This document shows positions 432-20,113 of a stretch of DNA of 21,002 bases, in pieces (the stretch's first letter is position 1; the number at the start of each line of letters is the position of its first letter). The position numbers and the translations under genes were made by a program. Location of the stretch: the IMG/VR virus record IMGVR_UViG_3300032223_001931, positions 1 to 21,002 of that record; one strand, 5' to 3'. Under the pieces are notes generated by a model, which searched no databases, had not been told where the DNA came from, and saw only the letters and a list, made by a program, of their open reading frames with translations. Origin of the DNA: a virus.

Positions 432-438
432 TTGTTTT

Positions 439-466
439 ATTATGAAACCGGGTGTTAAAAAGTCAA
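439..466 (-). promoter_or_regulatory. Sigma70-like promoter of uvsY
   Basis: On the minus strand the -35 is TTGACT (466-461), the spacer is 16 bp, and the -10 is CATAAT (444-439). Seven bases separate the -10 from the uvsY ATG. Transcription would normally start about 7 bases past the -10, that is at or one base before the A of the ATG, so the message should be leaderless or nearly so. The geometry matches the promoters of gene 55 and of the small gene at 13803. Confidence 0.7.
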
Positions 467-10113: not shown

Positions 10114-10141
10114 TTGACAATTCGATTAATTGTATTATACT
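10114..10141 (+). promoter_or_regulatory. Sigma70-like promoter of genes 55-47-46
   Basis: A perfect -35 TTGACA (10114-10119), 16-bp spacer and -10 TATACT (10136-10141). These are the same hexamers and spacing as the promoter at 475-502. Only six bases (GAAACC) separate the -10 from the GTG at 10148, so transcription would start at the start codon. The dyad ACAATT-5-AATTGT (10117-10133) fills the spacer. Confidence 0.72.
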
Positions 10142-10147
10142 GAAACC

Positions 10148-10717
10148 GTGAAAAAGAAAAGAAAAAAGTCTAAACCATCGGATGCCGATTATGTAGATAA
10201 TCAAGCATTATATAAATCATTAATAGAATACAAAGATAAATGTAAAGATGCAGAAAATGCAGGAAGAAAAAAGCCAAAACTTCCAGATTACATTGGTGAA
10301 TGTATTTTAAAAATAGCCACGAGATTATCATTTCGTCCTAATTTTATGAATTATCCGTATAGGGAAGAAATGGTATCTGATGGAGTATTAAACTGCATAA
10401 CATATATTGATAATTTTGATCCTAAACTTTCAACCAGCCCATTTGCCTATCTAAGTCAAATATGCTGGTTTTCTTTTGTTCGTATTATAAACAAAGAAAA
10501 GAAAGAAAAATATACTCAATATAAGTTTGCAGAACAACAAAATGATAAAGATTTCCACAATTGGTTTAATGAAACCTATGCAGGTGTAGATATAGGTAGA
10601 AGAGATTTCTTTGGGCTTACAGATTTAGATATGGAACGTTTTGATAAGATGTGTAGCCCTAAGCCATTAAAAAGAACAAGAAAAAGAAAAAGTAAAAAAG
10701 ATACTTTAGATATATGA
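10148..10717 (+). CDS. 55: Late-transcription sigma factor gp55
   Basis: gp55 is the T4-type sigma factor that directs RNA polymerase to TATAAATA late promoters, with gp33 and the sliding clamp gp45 as partners. The match to T4 is clear: YVDNQALYKSLIEYK parallels T4 YVNNKELLQAIIDWK, REEMVSDGVLNCITYIDNFD parallels T4 QEMIADGIEASIKGLHNFD, and PFAYLSQICWFSFVRIINKE parallels T4 [20 protein letters not shown]. Length from the GTG at 10148 is 189, against 185 in T4. An in-frame TTG at 10130 lies inside the promoter upstream of the likely transcription start, so GTG is preferred; no ATG occurs nearby in frame. No Shine-Dalgarno sequence is present, consistent with a leaderless message. The stop overlaps gene 47 as ATGA. 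Confidence 0.93.
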   Translation: MKKKRKKSKPSDADYVDNQALYKSLIEYKDKCKDAENAGRKKPKLPDYIGECILKIATRLSFRPNFMNYPYREEMVSDGVLNCITYIDNFDPKLSTSPFAYLSQICWFSFVRIINKEKKEKYTQYKFAEQQNDKDFHNWFNETYAGVDIGRRDFFGLTDLDMERFDKMCSPKPLKRTRKRKSKKDTLDI

Positions 10718-11760: not shown

Positions 11761-13478
11761 TTGAATTTTTAACAGTTCGGTTCAAAAACTTTGGATCGTT
11801 TGGTAATAATTTTTCAGAAATAAATTTAAATAATCACAAAACAACGCTGGTCACAGGAACAAACGGTAATGGAAAATCTTTTGCTCTTTTGGATTCTTTG
11901 TGCTTTGGACTATTTGGCAAACCATTCAGACCAATCAATATCCCACAATTGGTCAACTCGGTCAATGCTAAACAATGCCTGGTTGAAATCGAATTCAACA
12001 AATCCAAATCACATTATTTGATTAGGCGCGGTTTGAGTCCAAAGGTCTTTGAAATCATCAAAGACGGGGAACTTTTGGATCAAAATGCCAAATCAAAAGA
12101 TTACCAAGAATACCTAGAAGAACAAATTTTGGGCTTTGATTATTCGGCCTTTAAACAGGTTGTAATCCTCGGTAAGTCTAACTTCGTCCCATTCATGCAA
12201 TTGACCCCTGCAGAGCGTCGTAAGATCATTGAGGGGCTTCTGGACCTCGATATCCTAGCAGATATGGGTGTTTATGTCAAAGGGCAACTGGGGTCTTTAA
12301 AGGTCACTATTGCAGAGCATGAAAGTTTGGTAAAAATTGCCCATGAAAAGATTAAATCTCAAAAAGAATTCATAGAGCAAGTAAAATCAAGCAATGCTGA
12401 TGATATAAAGGCTATAGAAGATCGTATTGAGGAATATTATTCCGAGATAGATATAGCCACAAAAGAATTGGCTATTCGATTAAGCGAGCATACCAGAATT
12501 TCAGATTTAATAAAAAAGACAAAAAAGAATATTGAATCTCTGAAAGATGTTCCTGCAATGCTCATCAAAGCAGAGTCACTAAAAGCAACTCTTTTGGAAG
12601 AGATTAAGGCTTTGGAGGAAAATGCAACATGTAAGTGTTGCTTACAAGTTCTCCCAGAAGATCAAAAACAAAAGCATCTACAAGAAAAGCGCAAAAAGTC
12701 AGAAGATTGTTTTGAAGCACTTAAAGTTGCTAGAAAAAAAGAAGTAGAACTTGAAAAATTAAAAAAAGAATATGATAAATTTAATATTCTATTGAATACA
12801 GAATCTAGTGATATAAATGGTTTGAATTATCGTATCGGAAATGCTGAATCAAATATCAAAGTTTTGCAGAAAGACAAAAAAGACAAAGAAGCTGCAAACA
12901 ATCTGACATCAATACTAAATAGCCTCAAAGAGTCAGAGGACAACAAGAATGAAATTACAAGTAAGTTGGAAAAATTTGTTGCAGAACAAATTCACCATGA
13001 TGTGGTCTATGATATCCTCAAGGATGGTGGCCTTAAGAGTCGTATTATCAAACATTATGTTCCCATCATCAATGGACTCGTCAACAAGTTCCTTGGAAAA
13101 CTTAACCTATATGTGGACTTCACAATCGATGAAGAGTTCAAAGAAACAATACGATCAAGATATCGAGATGCATTCTCATATTCCTCTTTCTCTGAGGGAG
13201 AGAAACAGCGAATCGACTTGGCTATCCTTCTGACTTGGCGCGAGATCGCTAAGATGAAAAATAGCCTTAACTGCAATCTATTGATATTCGATGAGATTCT
13301 AGATTCATCTTTGGACGCAACTGGAACAGAATCATTCTTGAAGATCTTGAATAAGATGAAGAATAAATGTTCAATATACATCATTAGTCATAAGGCAGAT
13401 TCATTGGTTGATAAATTTGACCAATCTCTCCAGTTTGAGAAAAAGAATAATTTTTCTAAGATAAAGACCCAAGTCTAA
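11757..13478 (+). CDS. 46: Recombination nuclease ATPase subunit gp46 (Rad50/SbcC-like)
   Basis: gp46 is the ATPase partner of gp47. It has Walker A GTNGNGKS (34-41), the Q-loop region around FKQVVILGKSNFVPFM, two long charged coiled-coil arms, a zinc-hook CKCC (292-295) at the tip between them, the ABC signature FSEGEKQRID (near 477-486) and Walker B LLIFDEILD (near 508-516), followed by the H-loop ISHKAD. Length is 573, against 560 in T4. The arms (about 12340-12950) are clearly more AT-rich than the ATPase ends, as expected if the ends are under stronger constraint. The stop lies inside the late-promoter-like TCTAAATA of the next gene. Confidence 0.95.
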   Translation: MIEFLTVRFKNFGSFGNNFSEINLNNHKTTLVTGTNGNGKSFALLDSLCFGLFGKPFRPINIPQLVNSVNAKQCLVEIEFNKSKSHYLIRRGLSPKVFEIIKDGELLDQNAKSKDYQEYLEEQILGFDYSAFKQVVILGKSNFVPFMQLTPAERRKIIEGLLDLDILADMGVYVKGQLGSLKVTIAEHESLVKIAHEKIKSQKEFIEQVKSSNADDIKAIEDRIEEYYSEIDIATKELAIRLSEHTRISDLIKKTKKNIESLKDVPAMLIKAESLKATLLEEIKALEENATCKCCLQVLPEDQKQKHLQEKRKKSEDCFEALKVARKKEVELEKLKKEYDKFNILLNTESSDINGLNYRIGNAESNIKVLQKDKKDKEAANNLTSILNSLKESEDNKNEITSKLEKFVAEQIHHDVVYDILKDGGLKSRIIKHYVPIINGLVNKFLGKLNLYVDFTIDEEFKETIRSRYRDAFSYSSFSEGEKQRIDLAILLTWREIAKMKNSLNCNLLIFDEILDSSLDATGTESFLKILNKMKNKCSIYIISHKADSLVDKFDQSLQFEKKNNFSKIKTQV

Positions 13479-13481
13479 ATA
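13474..13481 (+). promoter_or_regulatory. Late-promoter-like element before the small virion-type gene
   Basis: TCTAAATA matches the T4 late consensus TATAAATA at seven of eight bases and overlaps the gene 46 stop codon. Six bases (TTTTAA) separate it from the ATG at 13488, so transcription would start about at the start codon, and no Shine-Dalgarno sequence is seen. A similar CCTAAATA lies before the virion cassette at 17644. Chance occurrence in AT-rich DNA cannot be excluded. Confidence 0.45.
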
Positions 13482-13487
13482 TTTTAA

Positions 13488-13772
13488 ATGTTCAAAGGTC
13501 AGTTTAAATTTAAAAATTCTACTGGTGTTCCCATTACATATAATAATGGAGATACTGTTGTTTATCAAGGTAAGATATATACTTCAAATAAAACAACACA
13601 ACAAAGTCCATTACAAGCACCAAAAGATTGGTCTTATAATAATTTAACTGAACCGTACAAGGGAACCAACCCACCTGTGAATCCGAAAGAAAATCAACTT
13701 TGGATATCAGATTCTGGTGTCATGTATATTTATTTTTATGATGGAAATTCATATCAATGGATTTCTGTTTGA
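13488..13772 (+). CDS. Small virion-type protein with a carbohydrate-binding-like motif
   Basis: This 94-residue protein has two recognisable parts. Residues 19-48 (N-N-G-D-T-V-V-Y-Q-G-K-I-Y, then P and K-D-W) follow the pattern of CBM5/12-like chitin-binding modules often found in phage fibres. Residues 61-94 (NPPVNPKENQLWISDSGVMY, then YFYDGNSYQWISV) follow a tail-fibre motif in which P-x-x-P-x-x-x-x-LW-x-D precedes a YIY strand and QW; the collagen-like fibre has a related segment at 535-562. It is probably a virion decoration or fibre component that binds glycans. It sits between genes 46 and 45, an unusual place for a virion gene, and its preceding element suggests late expression. Its stop overlaps the -35 of the next promoter. 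Confidence 0.62.
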   Translation: MFKGQFKFKNSTGVPITYNNGDTVVYQGKIYTSNKTTQQSPLQAPKDWSYNNLTEPYKGTNPPVNPKENQLWISDSGVMYIYFYDGNSYQWISV

Positions 13773-13796
13773 CTTTATTAATATTGGAGATATAAT
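13769..13796 (+). promoter_or_regulatory. Sigma70-like promoter of the clamp operon
   Basis: The -35 TTGACT (13769-13774), 16-bp spacer and perfect -10 TATAAT (13791-13796) precede the ATG at 13803 by six bases (AGAATC). Transcription should begin at the A of the ATG. The promoter would serve the small basic gene and 45-44-62-regA. The GGAG at 13786-13789 lies upstream of the -10 and so would not be in this message. Confidence 0.75.
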
Positions 13797-13802
13797 AGAA
13801 TC

Positions 13803-13955
13803 ATGAATGAAGAGAGTTTCGAAAAGTTTAAGAATCGCCGCAAGAATAAGCCTTCAGGCTTCAGCAAGAAGCAACAGGCAAGGAACAAGCGCGGCAATCG
13901 CCATGAGCAAAAACAGCAATTGAATGATGCTATGTATCGCAAAGAGAACGACTAA
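13803..13955 (+). CDS. Small highly basic protein upstream of gene 45
   Basis: A 50-codon open frame starts MNEESFEKFKNRRKNKPSGF and ends in DAMYRKEND. It is rich in Lys, Arg, Asn and Gln, has almost no hydrophobic core and could bind nucleic acid or a partner protein. Its codons are richer in G and C than those of the glycan genes and similar to those of gene 45, which supports real coding. The promoter placed exactly six bases upstream makes this start likely. In T4 the same place holds small genes (45.2, 45.1, rpbA); I cannot show homology to any of them. Sixteen bases separate it from gene 45. Confidence 0.6.
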   Translation: MNEESFEKFKNRRKNKPSGFSKKQQARNKRGNRHEQKQQLNDAMYRKEND

Positions 13956-13971: not shown

Positions 13972-14643
13972 ATGACAACTGTGACTAAAATGCGTTTATC
14001 CAAAGAGACCTATAACATTCTCAAGAACTTTGCAGCGATCAACTCAAATATTCTTATCAACCCTGGAAACATTCTAAAGACTGTTTCTTCTGGTAAGAAC
14101 ATTTATGTTGAGGCCAAGGTCACTGAGGACTTTGATGTACCTGTTCCTATCTGGGATCTAAACAAGTTCCTAGGAGTTATCAGCATGTTTAATAACCCCG
14201 ATCTTGAGTTTCACGATACCCATGTCGTGATCACCAATGGTCGGTCCAGCGTAACTTATTACTATTCTGAGACTAGTCTATTGACTGTTCCTAAGAGTGA
14301 ATTGAAAATGCCCAAGACCAAGATCAGTTTTGATCTTGATGAGAAGGATCTGAATGAGATTCTGAAGGCCGCTAGCATTCTTCAGGTTAGCGATCTTCGA
14401 ATGATCGGTGGCGAAGGTAAGTTCCGCATCATGGTAGATGATGACAGTCAGAGCACTGCAAATAGCTTTGAGATCGTTCTTGATGAGAACTATAATGGTG
14501 ATGACTTTGAGGGAACCTTGAATGTGTCTGAGATCAAGTTTATTCCTGGTTCATATACCGTTGAGTTGACTGATACCATTATTTCTAAGTTCAAGCACAA
14601 GACTTTGGATCTATCCTACTATATCGCTATCAAGCGAGGTTAA
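13972..14643 (+). CDS. 45: DNA polymerase sliding clamp gp45
   Basis: gp45 is the trimeric ring that holds DNA polymerase on DNA and also activates late transcription by contacting gp55. The protein has 223 residues, against 228 in T4. It starts MTTVTKMRLSKETYNILKNF, similar to T4 gp45, in which an LSK-x-T segment starts the first helix. PVPIWDLNKFLGVISMF is the expected loop-strand of the first domain. The gene is followed after one base by gene 44, as in T4. The ribosome site before the ATG is weak (GAAAG). Base composition is distinctly less AT-rich than the glycan cluster, consistent with an abundant protein. Confidence 0.9.
   Translation: MTTVTKMRLSKETYNILKNFAAINSNILINPGNILKTVSSGKNIYVEAKVTEDFDVPVPIWDLNKFLGVISMFNNPDLEFHDTHVVITNGRSSVTYYYSETSLLTVPKSELKMPKTKISFDLDEKDLNEILKAASILQVSDLRMIGGEGKFRIMVDDDSQSTANSFEIVLDENYNGDDFEGTLNVSEIKFIPGSYTVELTDTIISKFKHKTLDLSYYIAIKRG
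14636..14639 (+). promoter_or_regulatory. Shine-Dalgarno sequence for the TTG start of gene 44
   Basis: GAGG within the last codons of gene 45 lies five bases before the TTG at 14645. No ATG or GTG in the reading frame fits the start of the conserved VEKYRP segment, so TTG with this ribosome site is the most credible start. Confidence 0.6.
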
Positions 14644-14644
14644 A

Positions 14645-15589
14645 TTGTCAGACATTACTAATCTGCTCTGGGTCGAGAAGTATCGCCCAAAGACTCTATC
14701 TGATTGCATTCTTCCGATTGACCTTAGCGCAGTTTTCAATGGTATGGTCAAGGAGCGTACAATCCCAAACATGCTGTTCTACGGTAAGGCTGGAACAGGA
14801 AAGACAACTGTAGCCCGAGCAATTGCCAATGACATTGGTGCAGATAACATCCTTATCAACTGCTCCGAAGAGAATGGTATTGACACGCTACGAACTAAGA
14901 TTCGTAACTATGCATCAACTGTATCTCTGAGTGGTGGGTTGAAGGTAATCATCCTAGATGAGTTTGATTACGCAAATGCCCAGTCTATCCAGCCAGCATT
15001 GCGTGGTGCAATTGAAGAGTTTGCAAAGAACTGCAGATTTATTATTACATGCAACTACAAGAGTCGTGTAATTGATCCATTGCACTCCCGCTGCACAGGA
15101 ATAGATTTCACCATTCCAACTGCAGAGAAGGCTGCTTCTGCAGCAGCAGTTCTTAAGCGGATTGAATACATTCTAACAAATGAAAAGATTCCTTATGAGA
15201 CACCAGTTCTTGTCAATCTTGTCAAGAAGCATTTCCCTGATATTCGCCGTATCATTAACGAGCTTCAGCGGTATTCTTCTTCTGGGAAGATTGATGTTGG
15301 AATCTTGGCACAGGGTAGCAGCGAGTCCTATAAGGAACTCCTAGGCTACATGAAGGGCAAGGATTTTGCATCTTGCCGCAAGTGGGTTGTACAGAATCTA
15401 GATCTCAACACAGCAGAGTTTTACAAGCGTCTTTATACAGAGATGTATACAGCGCTCAAGCAAAGTTCAATTCCGCAAGCAATCCTGATTATTGCGGAGT
15501 ATCAGCACAAAGCAGCATTTGCTGCAGATCAGGAAATCAACACAATGGCTCTTATTGTCCAACTAATGATGGATTGTGAGTTCAACTGA
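14645..15589 (+). CDS. 44: Clamp loader large subunit gp44 (AAA+ ATPase)
   Basis: gp44 is the ATPase subunit that, with gp62, opens and loads the gp45 clamp. The RFC-type order is complete: VEKYRPKTLSDCILP (10-24), Walker A GKAGTGKT (47-54), Walker B VIILDEFD (101-108), sensor 1 FIITCNY (132-138) and the arginine-finger motif HSRC (147-150), followed by the lid and collar helices. Length is 314, against 319 in T4. The start codon is TTG, one base after the gene 45 stop. The final TGA overlaps the gene 62 ATG as TGATG, similar in principle to the coupling of 44 and 62 in T4. Confidence 0.95.
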   Translation: MSDITNLLWVEKYRPKTLSDCILPIDLSAVFNGMVKERTIPNMLFYGKAGTGKTTVARAIANDIGADNILINCSEENGIDTLRTKIRNYASTVSLSGGLKVIILDEFDYANAQSIQPALRGAIEEFAKNCRFIITCNYKSRVIDPLHSRCTGIDFTIPTAEKAASAAAVLKRIEYILTNEKIPYETPVLVNLVKKHFPDIRRIINELQRYSSSGKIDVGILAQGSSESYKELLGYMKGKDFASCRKWVVQNLDLNTAEFYKRLYTEMYTALKQSSIPQAILIIAEYQHKAAFAADQEINTMALIVQLMMDCEFN

Positions 15590-15972
15590 TGAAACTGGGA
15601 GAATTTTTAACCAGTATCAATTACGACAAGACCCCTTTGCTGGATAAGGACGAATCCGCTGCTCGCCTTTATCCAGCATATGTCGTTAATCGATGTCTAT
15701 CATATTTTGCGGACACAATCTTTCACGCAAATGAAATGAATTGTGTCCCATGGTTGGACAATAAGAGCCAGTTTGATTTCCATCGTATGTCTGTTAGAAA
15801 AAGAAAGCGATTTTCTAAATGGGTCGAAAAGGAAGTCGAAGAAGACATTGATGCGATTAAACAGGCATTTGGTTATACAGAACAGAAGGCTAGGGAAGTC
15901 CTAAATATTATTGGACCACAAGAAATTGACCAAATCAAAAGGTCCTTGTATAAGGGTGGATCTGAAAAATAA
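15589..15972 (+). CDS. 62: Clamp loader small subunit gp62
   Basis: This 127-residue protein lies between 44 and regA, the place of gene 62 in T4-like phages. It begins MKLGEFLTSINYDKTPLLDK and has YPAYVVNRCLSYFADTIFHA, a segment that in T4-like gp62 proteins follows the N-terminal domain (Y-x-x-x-x-V-N-x-x-L-S). It is much shorter than T4 gp62 (187), as I recall also for cyanophage versions. Its function is the non-ATPase collar subunit of the loader. Translation is probably coupled to gene 44 through TGATG. The stop codon overlaps an AT-rich stretch just ahead of the regA ribosome site. Confidence 0.85.
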   Translation: MKLGEFLTSINYDKTPLLDKDESAARLYPAYVVNRCLSYFADTIFHANEMNCVPWLDNKSQFDFHRMSVRKRKRFSKWVEKEVEEDIDAIKQAFGYTEQKAREVLNIIGPQEIDQIKRSLYKGGSEK

Positions 15973-15974
15973 AT

Positions 15975-15989
15975 AAGGATTTGTTATGT
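15975..15989 (+). promoter_or_regulatory. regA translation start region, possible RegA self-binding site
   Basis: AAGGA (15975-15979) lies six bases before the ATG at 15986, with TTTGTT between. The word TTTGTTATGT spanning the start codon resembles the UUGUUAUGU core of RNAs that T4 RegA prefers, as I remember them. T4 regA is autoregulated, so a site here would be sensible. The same word is present at 7081-7090. Confidence 0.4.
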
Positions 15990-16411
15990 CTGATGTTTCT
16001 AAGCGTATTTTTAATGATGTTGGTGTACATATAAAATTATTTGATGACGAAGATTTTATGGTCGTCAGAGAAACCCTTACTCGTATGGGTGTCTCGCCAA
16101 AAGGTAAAAATATATTGTACCAGTCCTGCCACCTTGTCCATAAGGATGGCGTTTATGTCGTTGCACATTTCAAGGAATTGTTTGCTCTGGACGGGCTTCC
16201 TTCAAATGTATCAACCGAGGATGTCCAACGCAGAAATGCTATTGTAAAATTATTGGAAGACTGGGAGTTGCTTGAGGTAATTGATAAAGAAAAGATCAAG
16301 GACCAAATGCCACTCACTGGAATGAAGATAATTAAGTATGGAGAAAAGGATAATTGGGAATTGATTCCCAAGTTCAATCCAGGAACACTACGTAAGTTTT
16401 TTAATTCATAA
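15986..16411 (+). CDS. regA: Translational repressor RegA
   Basis: RegA binds start regions of early mRNAs and blocks ribosomes. The protein has 141 residues, against 122 in T4. The similarity is strong: DFMVVRETLTRMGVSPKGKN parallels T4 DFLKVKETLTRMGIANNKDK, ILYQSCHLVHKDGVYVVAHF parallels VLYQSCHILQKKGLYYIVHF, then RRNAIVKLLEDWELLEVI and NWELIPKF near the end. The extra length is an N-terminal extension (MSDVSKRIFNDVG) and a C-terminal tail. It has a good ribosome site. The T4 order 45-44-62-regA is kept, but the gene after it is a glycosyltransferase and not DNA polymerase. Confidence 0.95.
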   Translation: MSDVSKRIFNDVGVHIKLFDDEDFMVVRETLTRMGVSPKGKNILYQSCHLVHKDGVYVVAHFKELFALDGLPSNVSTEDVQRRNAIVKLLEDWELLEVIDKEKIKDQMPLTGMKIIKYGEKDNWELIPKFNPGTLRKFFNS

Positions 16412-17696: not shown

Positions 17697-18092
17697 ATGA
17701 TACAAAATTATGATGTAACTGTAGTAAAAGGCGATACTGCAAGATGGTCGTACTTTTTCCCAGGTGTAACCAGTGGAAACACATTTAATTTTATAGGTTG
17801 CACACTTTATATGCAAGTTAGAACTGGATATTCTCCAGAACCACTGGTTGCAACCTATGCAACAAACATAATTTCAAATACAAATCTGTTTTATCCTGCA
17901 GGCATAACTGGTGGAATTTCTGCTGCTACAGGTGGAACAGTATACATGTGCTTAGGATCATCATATTCAAATAGTCTTACAACTGATAGAATCTGCAAAT
18001 ATGATTTGAAAGTTTATGAACCAAATCTTAAAGATTTGATAACTTTAATTCAAGGAAATATTCAGGTACTTCCTGAAGTAACAGATATATAA
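17697..18092 (+). CDS. Virion protein with Ig-like, BppU-type adaptor fold
   Basis: This 131-residue protein follows the pattern of the N-terminal domain of baseplate upper proteins (BppU-like) and other phage adaptor proteins: [16 protein letters not shown] at the start, [11 protein letters not shown] as the second strand, then a glycine-rich loop and the end segment [20 protein letters not shown] (about 101-120) followed by [12 protein letters not shown]. It is mostly beta-strand, without signal or membrane segments. GGAG is six bases upstream. Its stop overlaps the collagen-like fibre start as TAATG, so it may anchor that fibre to the virion (inference). I did not see a T4 counterpart. Confidence 0.62.
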
Positions 18093-20113
18093 TGTTCTTT
18101 GGAAAGAACAAAACATCTTTAAAATTGGCAAAATGGCATGAAGAACTGCCACAAGGATGTGAATTTTTTATTGTTGAGTCTGTACAATCACCAAAACGAA
18201 TAAAAATTGGTTCTGGTATAACTCAATTGTTATTGAGAAATTCTGATGGAGAAGAATATTTAATTGAAGGAAATTCTTCAAAAATTAAAGAACTATTCAT
18301 TCCATCAAAAACTTATGAATCCCTAGAAGGTAAAATATACAAATCAAAAAGACCTGTTGGAAATATTTTTCAAAATGAATTACTAAAAGAAATATCACCA
18401 TGTCAATATGATGAAAAAATTCAATTGGGACATGGGGTTTCAGAACATTATTTTATTCAAAAAAACAACAATAAAATTGTAAAAATTTATGGAAATTCAA
18501 ATCAAATAAAAAATTTATTTGAAGAAATTATTCCACCACAAAAAAATATAGAACCAAAAAAATTTTTAAAACCAATTCAACCAAAAATTGAAATTGTTGA
18601 AAAAACAATAATAAAAGAAAGCATTCCTGTAATTGGTGCACAGGGAATTCCCGGAGAAAAGGGAGACAAAGGAGATCTTGGTCCACGTGGTCCAAAAGGT
18701 GAACGTGGTGAAAAGGGACCAGAAGGATCTGTTGGACCCAAAGGTGATAGAGGAGATTTTGGTCCTCAGGGCGAAAGAGGACCAAAAGGAGAAAAAGGAG
18801 ATCCGGGATTAGAAGGATTGCAAGGTCCAAAAGGAGAAAAGGGAGATAAAGGTGATAAAGGAGATAAAGGTGATATTGGAATGGCTGGACCACAAGGTCC
18901 GCAAGGCATTCAAGGTGAAACAGGAGCCCCCGGTAGAGATGGTGCTCAAGGTCAGATTGGACCTCAAGGCCCCATTGGGCCGAAAGGTGATCGTGGAGAA
19001 AAAGGTGATAAAGGTGATCGAGGACCTGTGGGCCCTCAAGGTTATGTTGGAGAAAGAGGAGAAAGAGGCCCAGAAGGACCTAAAGGAGATAAAGGAGAAA
19101 CTGGGGTATTAGAGGCAAAGTACCCATTAGTTCTCAATGATGGAACACTCCATTTTGATTCAGAAAAATTTACTAAAGTTCTAGATCAATTTAAAAATAG
19201 TGACATACAAAGAGCAATTGATAAACTTGCCACAGCAATACCAACAGGTGGTGGTGCAGTTGGTATTAAAAAAGATGGAAAATATTTAATTAAATCAGTC
19301 AGTGATATTAATTTTATTGGTTCTGGTGTAGTAGTCAATCAAAATGGAAAGAATGTTGATGTAAACATTGGTGGTGTTGAAGGAGCTGTGACAAAAATTG
19401 TTGCAGGTCCAGGAATAAACATATCTCCAACTAGTGGTATAGGTGAAGTTACTGTAACAAATCATATCACTTTAAAAGCAGCTGCAGGATCAGTTCAATA
19501 TGCAAATAGTACAGTTGATGACTTAGCAGCCAATCAATATTTTACATTTAATGGTAGTGATTTAAATGTTCCTGGTGCATTGAATTTAAATGGAAATGGT
19601 AATATTCCATCTTATATTCAATTTAAAAATGGATCACAACAGGATACAGCAGCAATTAAATTTACATATGATACGACAGCACCTGCTGGTGCTACTCAGG
19701 GTGACCGTTGGATGGATTCCGATAACGGTATTGAATATGTATTAATTCAAGATGTAAGTGGTTCAACACAATGGGTCCAGCCAACAAATACCGGAGGTTC
19801 TAGTACACCTTCAGTATTGATCATGGCAACAACAACAGTTACTGGAGCAACATATTCAGCTCTCCCAACAGATTATTATATTGGTGTAAGTTACGCTGGT
19901 CCAGTCACTATAACTTTACCATCAAGCCCTGAAACTGGAAGAGAAATTGTAGTCAAAGACGAATCTGGAAATGCAGGAAACGGAGTCAATCGTTATATCA
20001 CGATTGTCGGAGCCACTGCATCACACAAGATAGATAATCAAAGTTCAGCAATAATAAACCTAGACAATGCTGCATTAAATTTCATTTATAGAAATGGATG
20101 GAGAATAATATAA
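18092..20113 (+). CDS. Collagen-like tail fibre protein
   Basis: A 673-residue fibre protein. Residues 1-180 form an N-terminal region with an internal repeat (36-71 and 109-148) and a lysine-rich linker. Residues 182-340 are 53 unbroken Gly-X-Y triplets, forming a collagen-type triple helix. Then [13 protein letters not shown], a segment [18 protein letters not shown] (411-428), [20 protein letters not shown] (437-456) seen in many phage fibres, the motif [14 protein letters not shown] (537-550) with QWVQ (560-563), and a C-terminal head [20 protein letters not shown] (608-627) ending [10 protein letters not shown], widespread in tail fibres. It probably forms a trimer that contacts the host. 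It overlaps the genes on both sides by one base (TAATG). Confidence 0.88.
18197..18535 (+). repeat. Duplicated module in the fibre N-terminus
   Basis: Residues 36-71 ([20 protein letters not shown] and on to [12 protein letters not shown]) and 109-148 ([20 protein letters not shown] and on to [15 protein letters not shown]) align through K-I-x-x-G-x-G, a charged D/N-rich turn, G-N-S-x-x-I-K-x-L-F and I-P. The copies are diverged at DNA level, so this is an old duplication. The module may mediate attachment to the virion. Confidence 0.6.
18635..19111 (+). repeat. Collagen-coding Gly-X-Y tract
   Basis: Fifty-three consecutive triplets begin with glycine. Lys or Arg in Y followed by Asp or Glu after the next Gly is frequent: I count 16 KGD/KGE steps, such as the run at 248-260. 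This is a pattern that stabilises collagen helices without hydroxyproline. The DNA is a purine-rich, near-repetitive array with GGAGA/GGTGA words. Confidence 0.92.

Follow-up and report, generated by a model that had tools for sequence, protein, structure and literature searches.

The question raised by the clamp operon of this T4-like virus is whether its promoter is placed so that transcription begins on the first codon of the first gene, which would make the message leaderless. The window (the whole stretch of 21,002 nucleotides that was analyzed, positions 1 to 21,002 of IMG/VR record IMGVR_UViG_3300032223_001931) contains a T4-like replication block composed of a gp55-like sigma, gp47, gp46, a 94-aa CBM-like gene, a small gene, gp45, gp44, gp62, and regA, of which the last four follow the T4-like clamp operon order (Table 1). 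The initial annotation had described a TTGACT-16-TATAAT promoter at 13769–13805 that is followed by six bases and an ATG. This arrangement was confirmed in the sequence, with ATG 13803 opening an ORF of 50 aa that extends to 13955.

Table 1. Features of the window that bear on leaderless expression.
Feature	Position	Strand	Evidence or remark
Promoter TTGACT-16-CATAAT, 7 nt before ATG 431 of UvsY-like gene	432..466 (hexamers 466..439)	-	phrog_231 2.3e-35
Promoter TTGACA-16-TATACT, 6 nt before GTG 10148	10114..10147	+	spacing conserved in gp55 orthologues
gp55-like late sigma factor, predicted leaderless, GTG start	10148..10717	+	phrog_234 1.5e-51
Late-promoter-like TCTAAATA + 6 nt before ATG 13488 of small CBM-like gene	13474..13487	+	overlaps gp46 end
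Clamp promoter -35, TTGACT	13769..13774	+	overlaps TGA stop of upstream CBM-like gene
Clamp promoter 16-bp spacer	13775-13790	+	sequence
GGAG within spacer, 13 nt 5' of ATG	13786..13789	+	conservation
Clamp promoter -10, TATAAT	13791..13796	+	TATAAT in 27/38 distinct upstreams
6-nt gap AGAATC	13797..13802	+	predicted +1 = A of ATG 13803
Conserved 50-aa basic protein, predicted leaderless first gene of clamp operon	13803..13955	+	conservation
gp45-like sliding clamp	13972..14643	+	phrog_223 1.5e-64
gp44-like clamp loader	14645..15589	+	phrog_168 5e-115
gp62-like clamp loader small subunit	15589..15972	+	PF16790 9.3e-10
RegA-like translational repressor	15986..16411	+	PF01818 2.3e-35

The clamp promoter shares 11 of 12 consensus positions with sigma-70-type promoters, and its conserved 16-bp spacer lies within the 16–18 bp typical of that class. 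Its TATAAT starts 12 nt 5' of ATG 13803, a distance kept in relatives and in agreement with the ~12 bp given for TA-led genes (Zheng 2011); there is no Shine-Dalgarno (SD) sequence at the working distance of 4–11 nt before this ATG, which also agrees with that description, although next to promoters the lack of SD sites is in part dictated by the sequence of the promoter itself. A second ATG at 13807, in another frame, was rejected as the start, being absent where codon 2 is AAC.

No close DNA relatives of the window were found in the phage collection. The relatives gathered with gp45 comprise 68 related IMG/VR contigs of 61–91% identity, and the 67 with an upstream region, together with the window, were collapsed to 38 distinct upstreams. 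The gap between -10 and ATG proved to be kept among them, with 6 nt in 33 of the 38, 7 nt in four, and 9 nt in one (L043); the script counted 32 with a gap of 6, and L026, which fits TAATAT at 6 nt as well, was added. Where the -10 is not TATAAT, it reads TATACT, TATATT, TATGAT, or TAATAT. The -35 varies among TTGACT, TTGATT, TTGACA, TGGACA, and TTGTAT, also where the upstream gene is absent, and the spacer is 16 bp throughout, as the four upstreams scored at 17 read TTGTAT at 16. L008 and L016 lack the CBM-like gene and keep the promoter with TTGACA; the -35 is therefore no by-product of the stop codon of that gene.

The strict search of the window (TTGAC-N17-NATA[ACT]T, 6–7 nt, then RTG with at least 40 codons) returned exactly three sites, at the minus-strand UvsY-like gene, the gp55-like late sigma, and the 50-codon gene, which makes the clamp promoter the third case with the same 16-bp spacer and 6–7-nt gap, as the initial annotation had counted. 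Its remark that chance is thereby less likely also held, the strict layout occurring 0 times in 300 dinucleotide-shuffled windows. A lax promoter scan of the window showed no enrichment (108 vs. 109.6 expected), and what lies beyond chance is therefore the strict combination together with its conservation. The promoter at 475 (TTGACA-16-TATACT) was rejected as a leaderless candidate, since it stands 15 nt from the ATG with GAGG between and is thus an ordinary leadered promoter. Positions 439–518 hold two divergent promoters, one serving the UvsY-like gene on the minus strand and the other a glycosyltransferase-like gene on the plus strand (ATG 518), a pair found again in several relatives; the predicted leader of the latter gene is ~8 nt and consists almost wholly of a GAGG site.

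The sharpest test of the spacing is gp55, where the upstream DNA has diverged to background and the hexamers and their spacing have stayed. Across 33 distinct upstreams of gp55 orthologues, background identity is ~40%, compared with 63–88% in the TTGA columns and 77–83% in the TA...T columns. In 28 of these upstreams, TAnnnT is placed at exactly 6 nt from the start codon, which is almost always GTG.

The group-wide statistics were drawn from eight long relatives (G001–G008; L074–L115) and the window, ~790 kb with 1046 called genes, the genes and their starts being those of a simple home-made caller. TTGACn-16-TATA[ACT]T occurs 58 times in this set vs. 0–12 times at other spacers. Among 45 mutually dissimilar promoters outside the clamp family, a start codon follows 6–9 nt downstream in 21 and at exactly 6 nt in 12. 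TATA[ACT]T peaks at a gap of 6, with 24 cases vs. a mean of 3.8 (maximum 11) in letter-shuffled upstreams, which keep base composition only; the peak covers 11 families, or 15 for gaps 6–7 together, families being counted because the contigs are related. Two further traits of G001–G008 are an almost fixed -35/-10 spacer (58 at 16 bp, 12 at 17), tighter than in E. coli, and a TRTG-like bias upstream of the -10.

A similar placement was found in the late promoters. T4 serves as the model for late transcription in phages, and in its late mRNAs there is space for an SD site. The T4 late octamer spans about -13 to -6; if the same holds here, an octamer 5 nt before the ATG would put +1 on the ATG. 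In the group, [TC]ATAAATA peaks at precisely this distance (31 genes from 18 families vs. a shuffled mean of 0.37), and NCTAAATA peaks at a gap of 5–7. With any first base allowed, the group has 81 late octamers at 4–9 nt and 53 at 10–34 nt before the ATG, whereas nine other T4-like phages (T4, KVP40, phiM12, five cyanophages, and marine virus AG-345-L05) have 2 and 119, respectively (Fisher p ~2e-27). T4 itself, unlike this group, has 24 at 10–34 nt and 0 at 4–9 nt. The Pelagibacter phage HTVC008M (L124–L130) shares the late pattern, with 10 of 16 late octamers at 4–9 nt, and differs from the group in lacking an early TATAAT peak at 6 nt and in having one TTGAC-16 promoter only. Among the control phages, it alone places late octamers 5 nt before the ATG (e.g., record positions 31132, 49760, and 6280), and several of its genes look leaderless too. 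The 94-aa CBM-like gene (13488–13772), which lies between gp46 and the clamp promoter, is present in some relatives and absent in others, like a mobile insertion equipped with a late-type promoter of its own.

The small gene is present in all 67 contigs and the window; its loss with the promoter kept, the outcome that the initial annotation had said would speak against it, was seen in only one contig (L061/G005), owing to one frameshift. Over 37 distinct ORFs, the omega-like value is 0.052 with changes chiefly at third codon positions, so the ORF is a real protein under strong purifying selection; its alignment has 23 invariant columns. The structure prediction gives two helices (pLDDT 79), and with its low pTM of 0.32, this model is not informative for function. 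No convincing homologue was found in annotated phages (tblastn), PHROGs, Pfam, or PDB, and an HMM of the 37 copies matched no ORF in the T4 stretch or nine other control phages (best E 0.74). T4 has rpbA and 45.2 where the window phage has the small gene, and both were rejected as counterparts, as there is no sequence similarity by HMM and no PHROG or Pfam match. The position of the small gene next to the clamp, and the charge of its product, hint that the protein may bind nucleic acid or clamp/polymerase.

Since the spacing of the -10 or the octamer recurs across families and is kept in relatives, the predicted +1 is the start codon, and with a probability of roughly 0.8, the clamp site is a sigma-70-type promoter that starts on the A of ATG 13803, yields a leaderless message, and is one case of a clade-wide early and late habit. 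Sigma-70 RNA polymerase starts ~7 nt after the -10. This distance would bring +1 onto the first base (A or G) of the start codon, and the clamp operon mRNA would open directly with the start codon of the conserved 50-aa basic protein. Ribosomes would bind the 5'-terminal AUG or GUG of such RNA and, it is inferred, translate it well, and downstream genes such as gp45 would depend on their own SD sites or on ordinary operon translation; genes deeper in the operon do carry SD sites, with a peak at 5–9 nt. In both its host-sigma (early) and its gp55-type (late) promoters, the clade would thus have +1 coincide with the first gene's start codon. For a wider account, the odds are about even: the clade, and partly HTVC008M, may have shifted early as well as gp55-dependent late promoters up to the start codons, leaderless mRNAs thereby opening much of the lytic program, including the GTG-started late sigma, with the clamp GGAG serving as a second mode on read-through RNA.

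The GGAG inside the clamp promoter has to be weighed against the leaderless reading, for it is found in 31 of 33 gap-6 upstreams, is about as conserved as the -10, and is replaced by SD-like letters (GAGG, AGGA) in L035, L066, and L045. It could be a long-spaced SD site on read-through mRNA, and in the extreme case, the small gene would be translated from it on a longer mRNA (gp46 read-through or an upstream promoter) and TATAAT would be a mere AT-rich stretch. This is very unlikely, as the 13-nt spacing falls outside the SD peak of these phages, which lies 5–11 nt before the start and reaches background by 13; in L040, L043, and L060, where the gap to the ATG changes, the GGAG stays at a fixed distance from the -10; L049 lacks it and yet keeps TTGACA-16-TATAAT; and a -35 at 16 bp would be left unexplained, as would the same layout at gp55, where GGAG is absent. 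A dual mode, in which translation is leaderless on mRNA from the gene's own promoter and SD-led through GGAG on gp47–gp46 read-through mRNA, would account for the conservation of both elements and suits the position of gp46 directly upstream on the same strand. With so poor a spacing, it is judged rather doubtful, all the more as these promoters in general favor a purine at -16 (87%), which covers part of the GGAG. Only that purine is common to these promoters, and the conserved GGAG is only partly explained.

Common descent alone, with no function in the constant gap, would fit the relatedness of all loci but is scarcely credible: it is contradicted by gp55, whose upstreams diverged to background with hexamers and spacing retained, and by the recurrence of the spacing in unrelated families and a second promoter class. 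The predicted start site on the ATG and the leaderless small gene are supported, with gap, gene, and spacing kept, whereas the further proposal that its translation delivers ribosomes to gp45 is unlikely. The weak gp45 ribosome site on which it drew is real in the window and nearest relatives (duplex ~-0.9 kcal/mol vs. an all-gene median of -2.95) and, together with a distance of 11–20 nt from the small-gene stop to the gp45 start, would suit a loading site; the same distance, which involves no overlap in any relative, also counts against ribosome entry. In the L037–L066 group, gp45 mostly has AAGGA (-5.4 to -6.2) and the small gene is equally kept, so a loader role is unnecessary, and the strong selection on the protein sequence makes the gene more than a ribosome ramp. 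An ordinary first cistron suffices to account for its position.

Leaderless layouts are known from bacteria, where a TA-like signal ~12 bp before the start is their published signature (PMC3160421). TA-led genes of Actinobacteria and Deinococcus-Thermus likewise have the -10 ~6 nt before the start, no usable SD, and ATG or GTG at +1, and conserved small leaderless first genes of operons have been described in mycobacteria (PMC3160421, PMC4633059, PMC12340547). Unlike these, the present cases belong to T4-like phages and have a well-kept TTGAC -35 at 16 bp plus a gp55-type late class. In the Thermus phage phiYS40, most middle and late mRNAs are leaderless (PMC3594737), and its type of strategy is for the phage to shift the IF2/IF3 balance in favor of leaderless mRNA; the present case involves a different phage and host, extends to early-type promoters, and relies on the gp55 octamer in its late class. 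With the T4 clamp operon, the window shares the order 47-46-(small gene)-45-44-62-regA, a gp55-like sigma, and the ATAAATA late octamer. No report of leaderless transcripts in T4-like phages or cyanophages was found in the openly accessible literature searched. For pelagimyophages, the prediction of middle and late promoters had proved impossible in a 2020 study (PMC7029224).

If the prediction is true, the gp55 late system would be uncoupled from SD-led translation in a clade where two classes of promoter put +1 on the start codon. Such placement would also give an exact rule for locating early and late promoters in uncultured T4-like phages, correct start-codon annotation (gp55 begins at GTG), and offer a hint that the host is good at translating leaderless messages with ATG and GTG. 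The group consists of T4-like viruses known mainly from environmental DNA and is presumably freshwater, given the sample sets and the absence of close marine isolates. The eight long relatives carry no psbA and no WhiB, and no gp45 relative was found in any bacterial genome contig searched. A leaderless GTG start works in mycobacteria and poorly in E. coli (PMC4633059); the GTG-started gp55 is therefore a hint about the host, no more, and would fit one that favors such messages. Elsewhere in the window, positions 18092–20113 encode a 673-aa protein with a long collagen-like Gly-X-Y stretch, which is probably a fibre.
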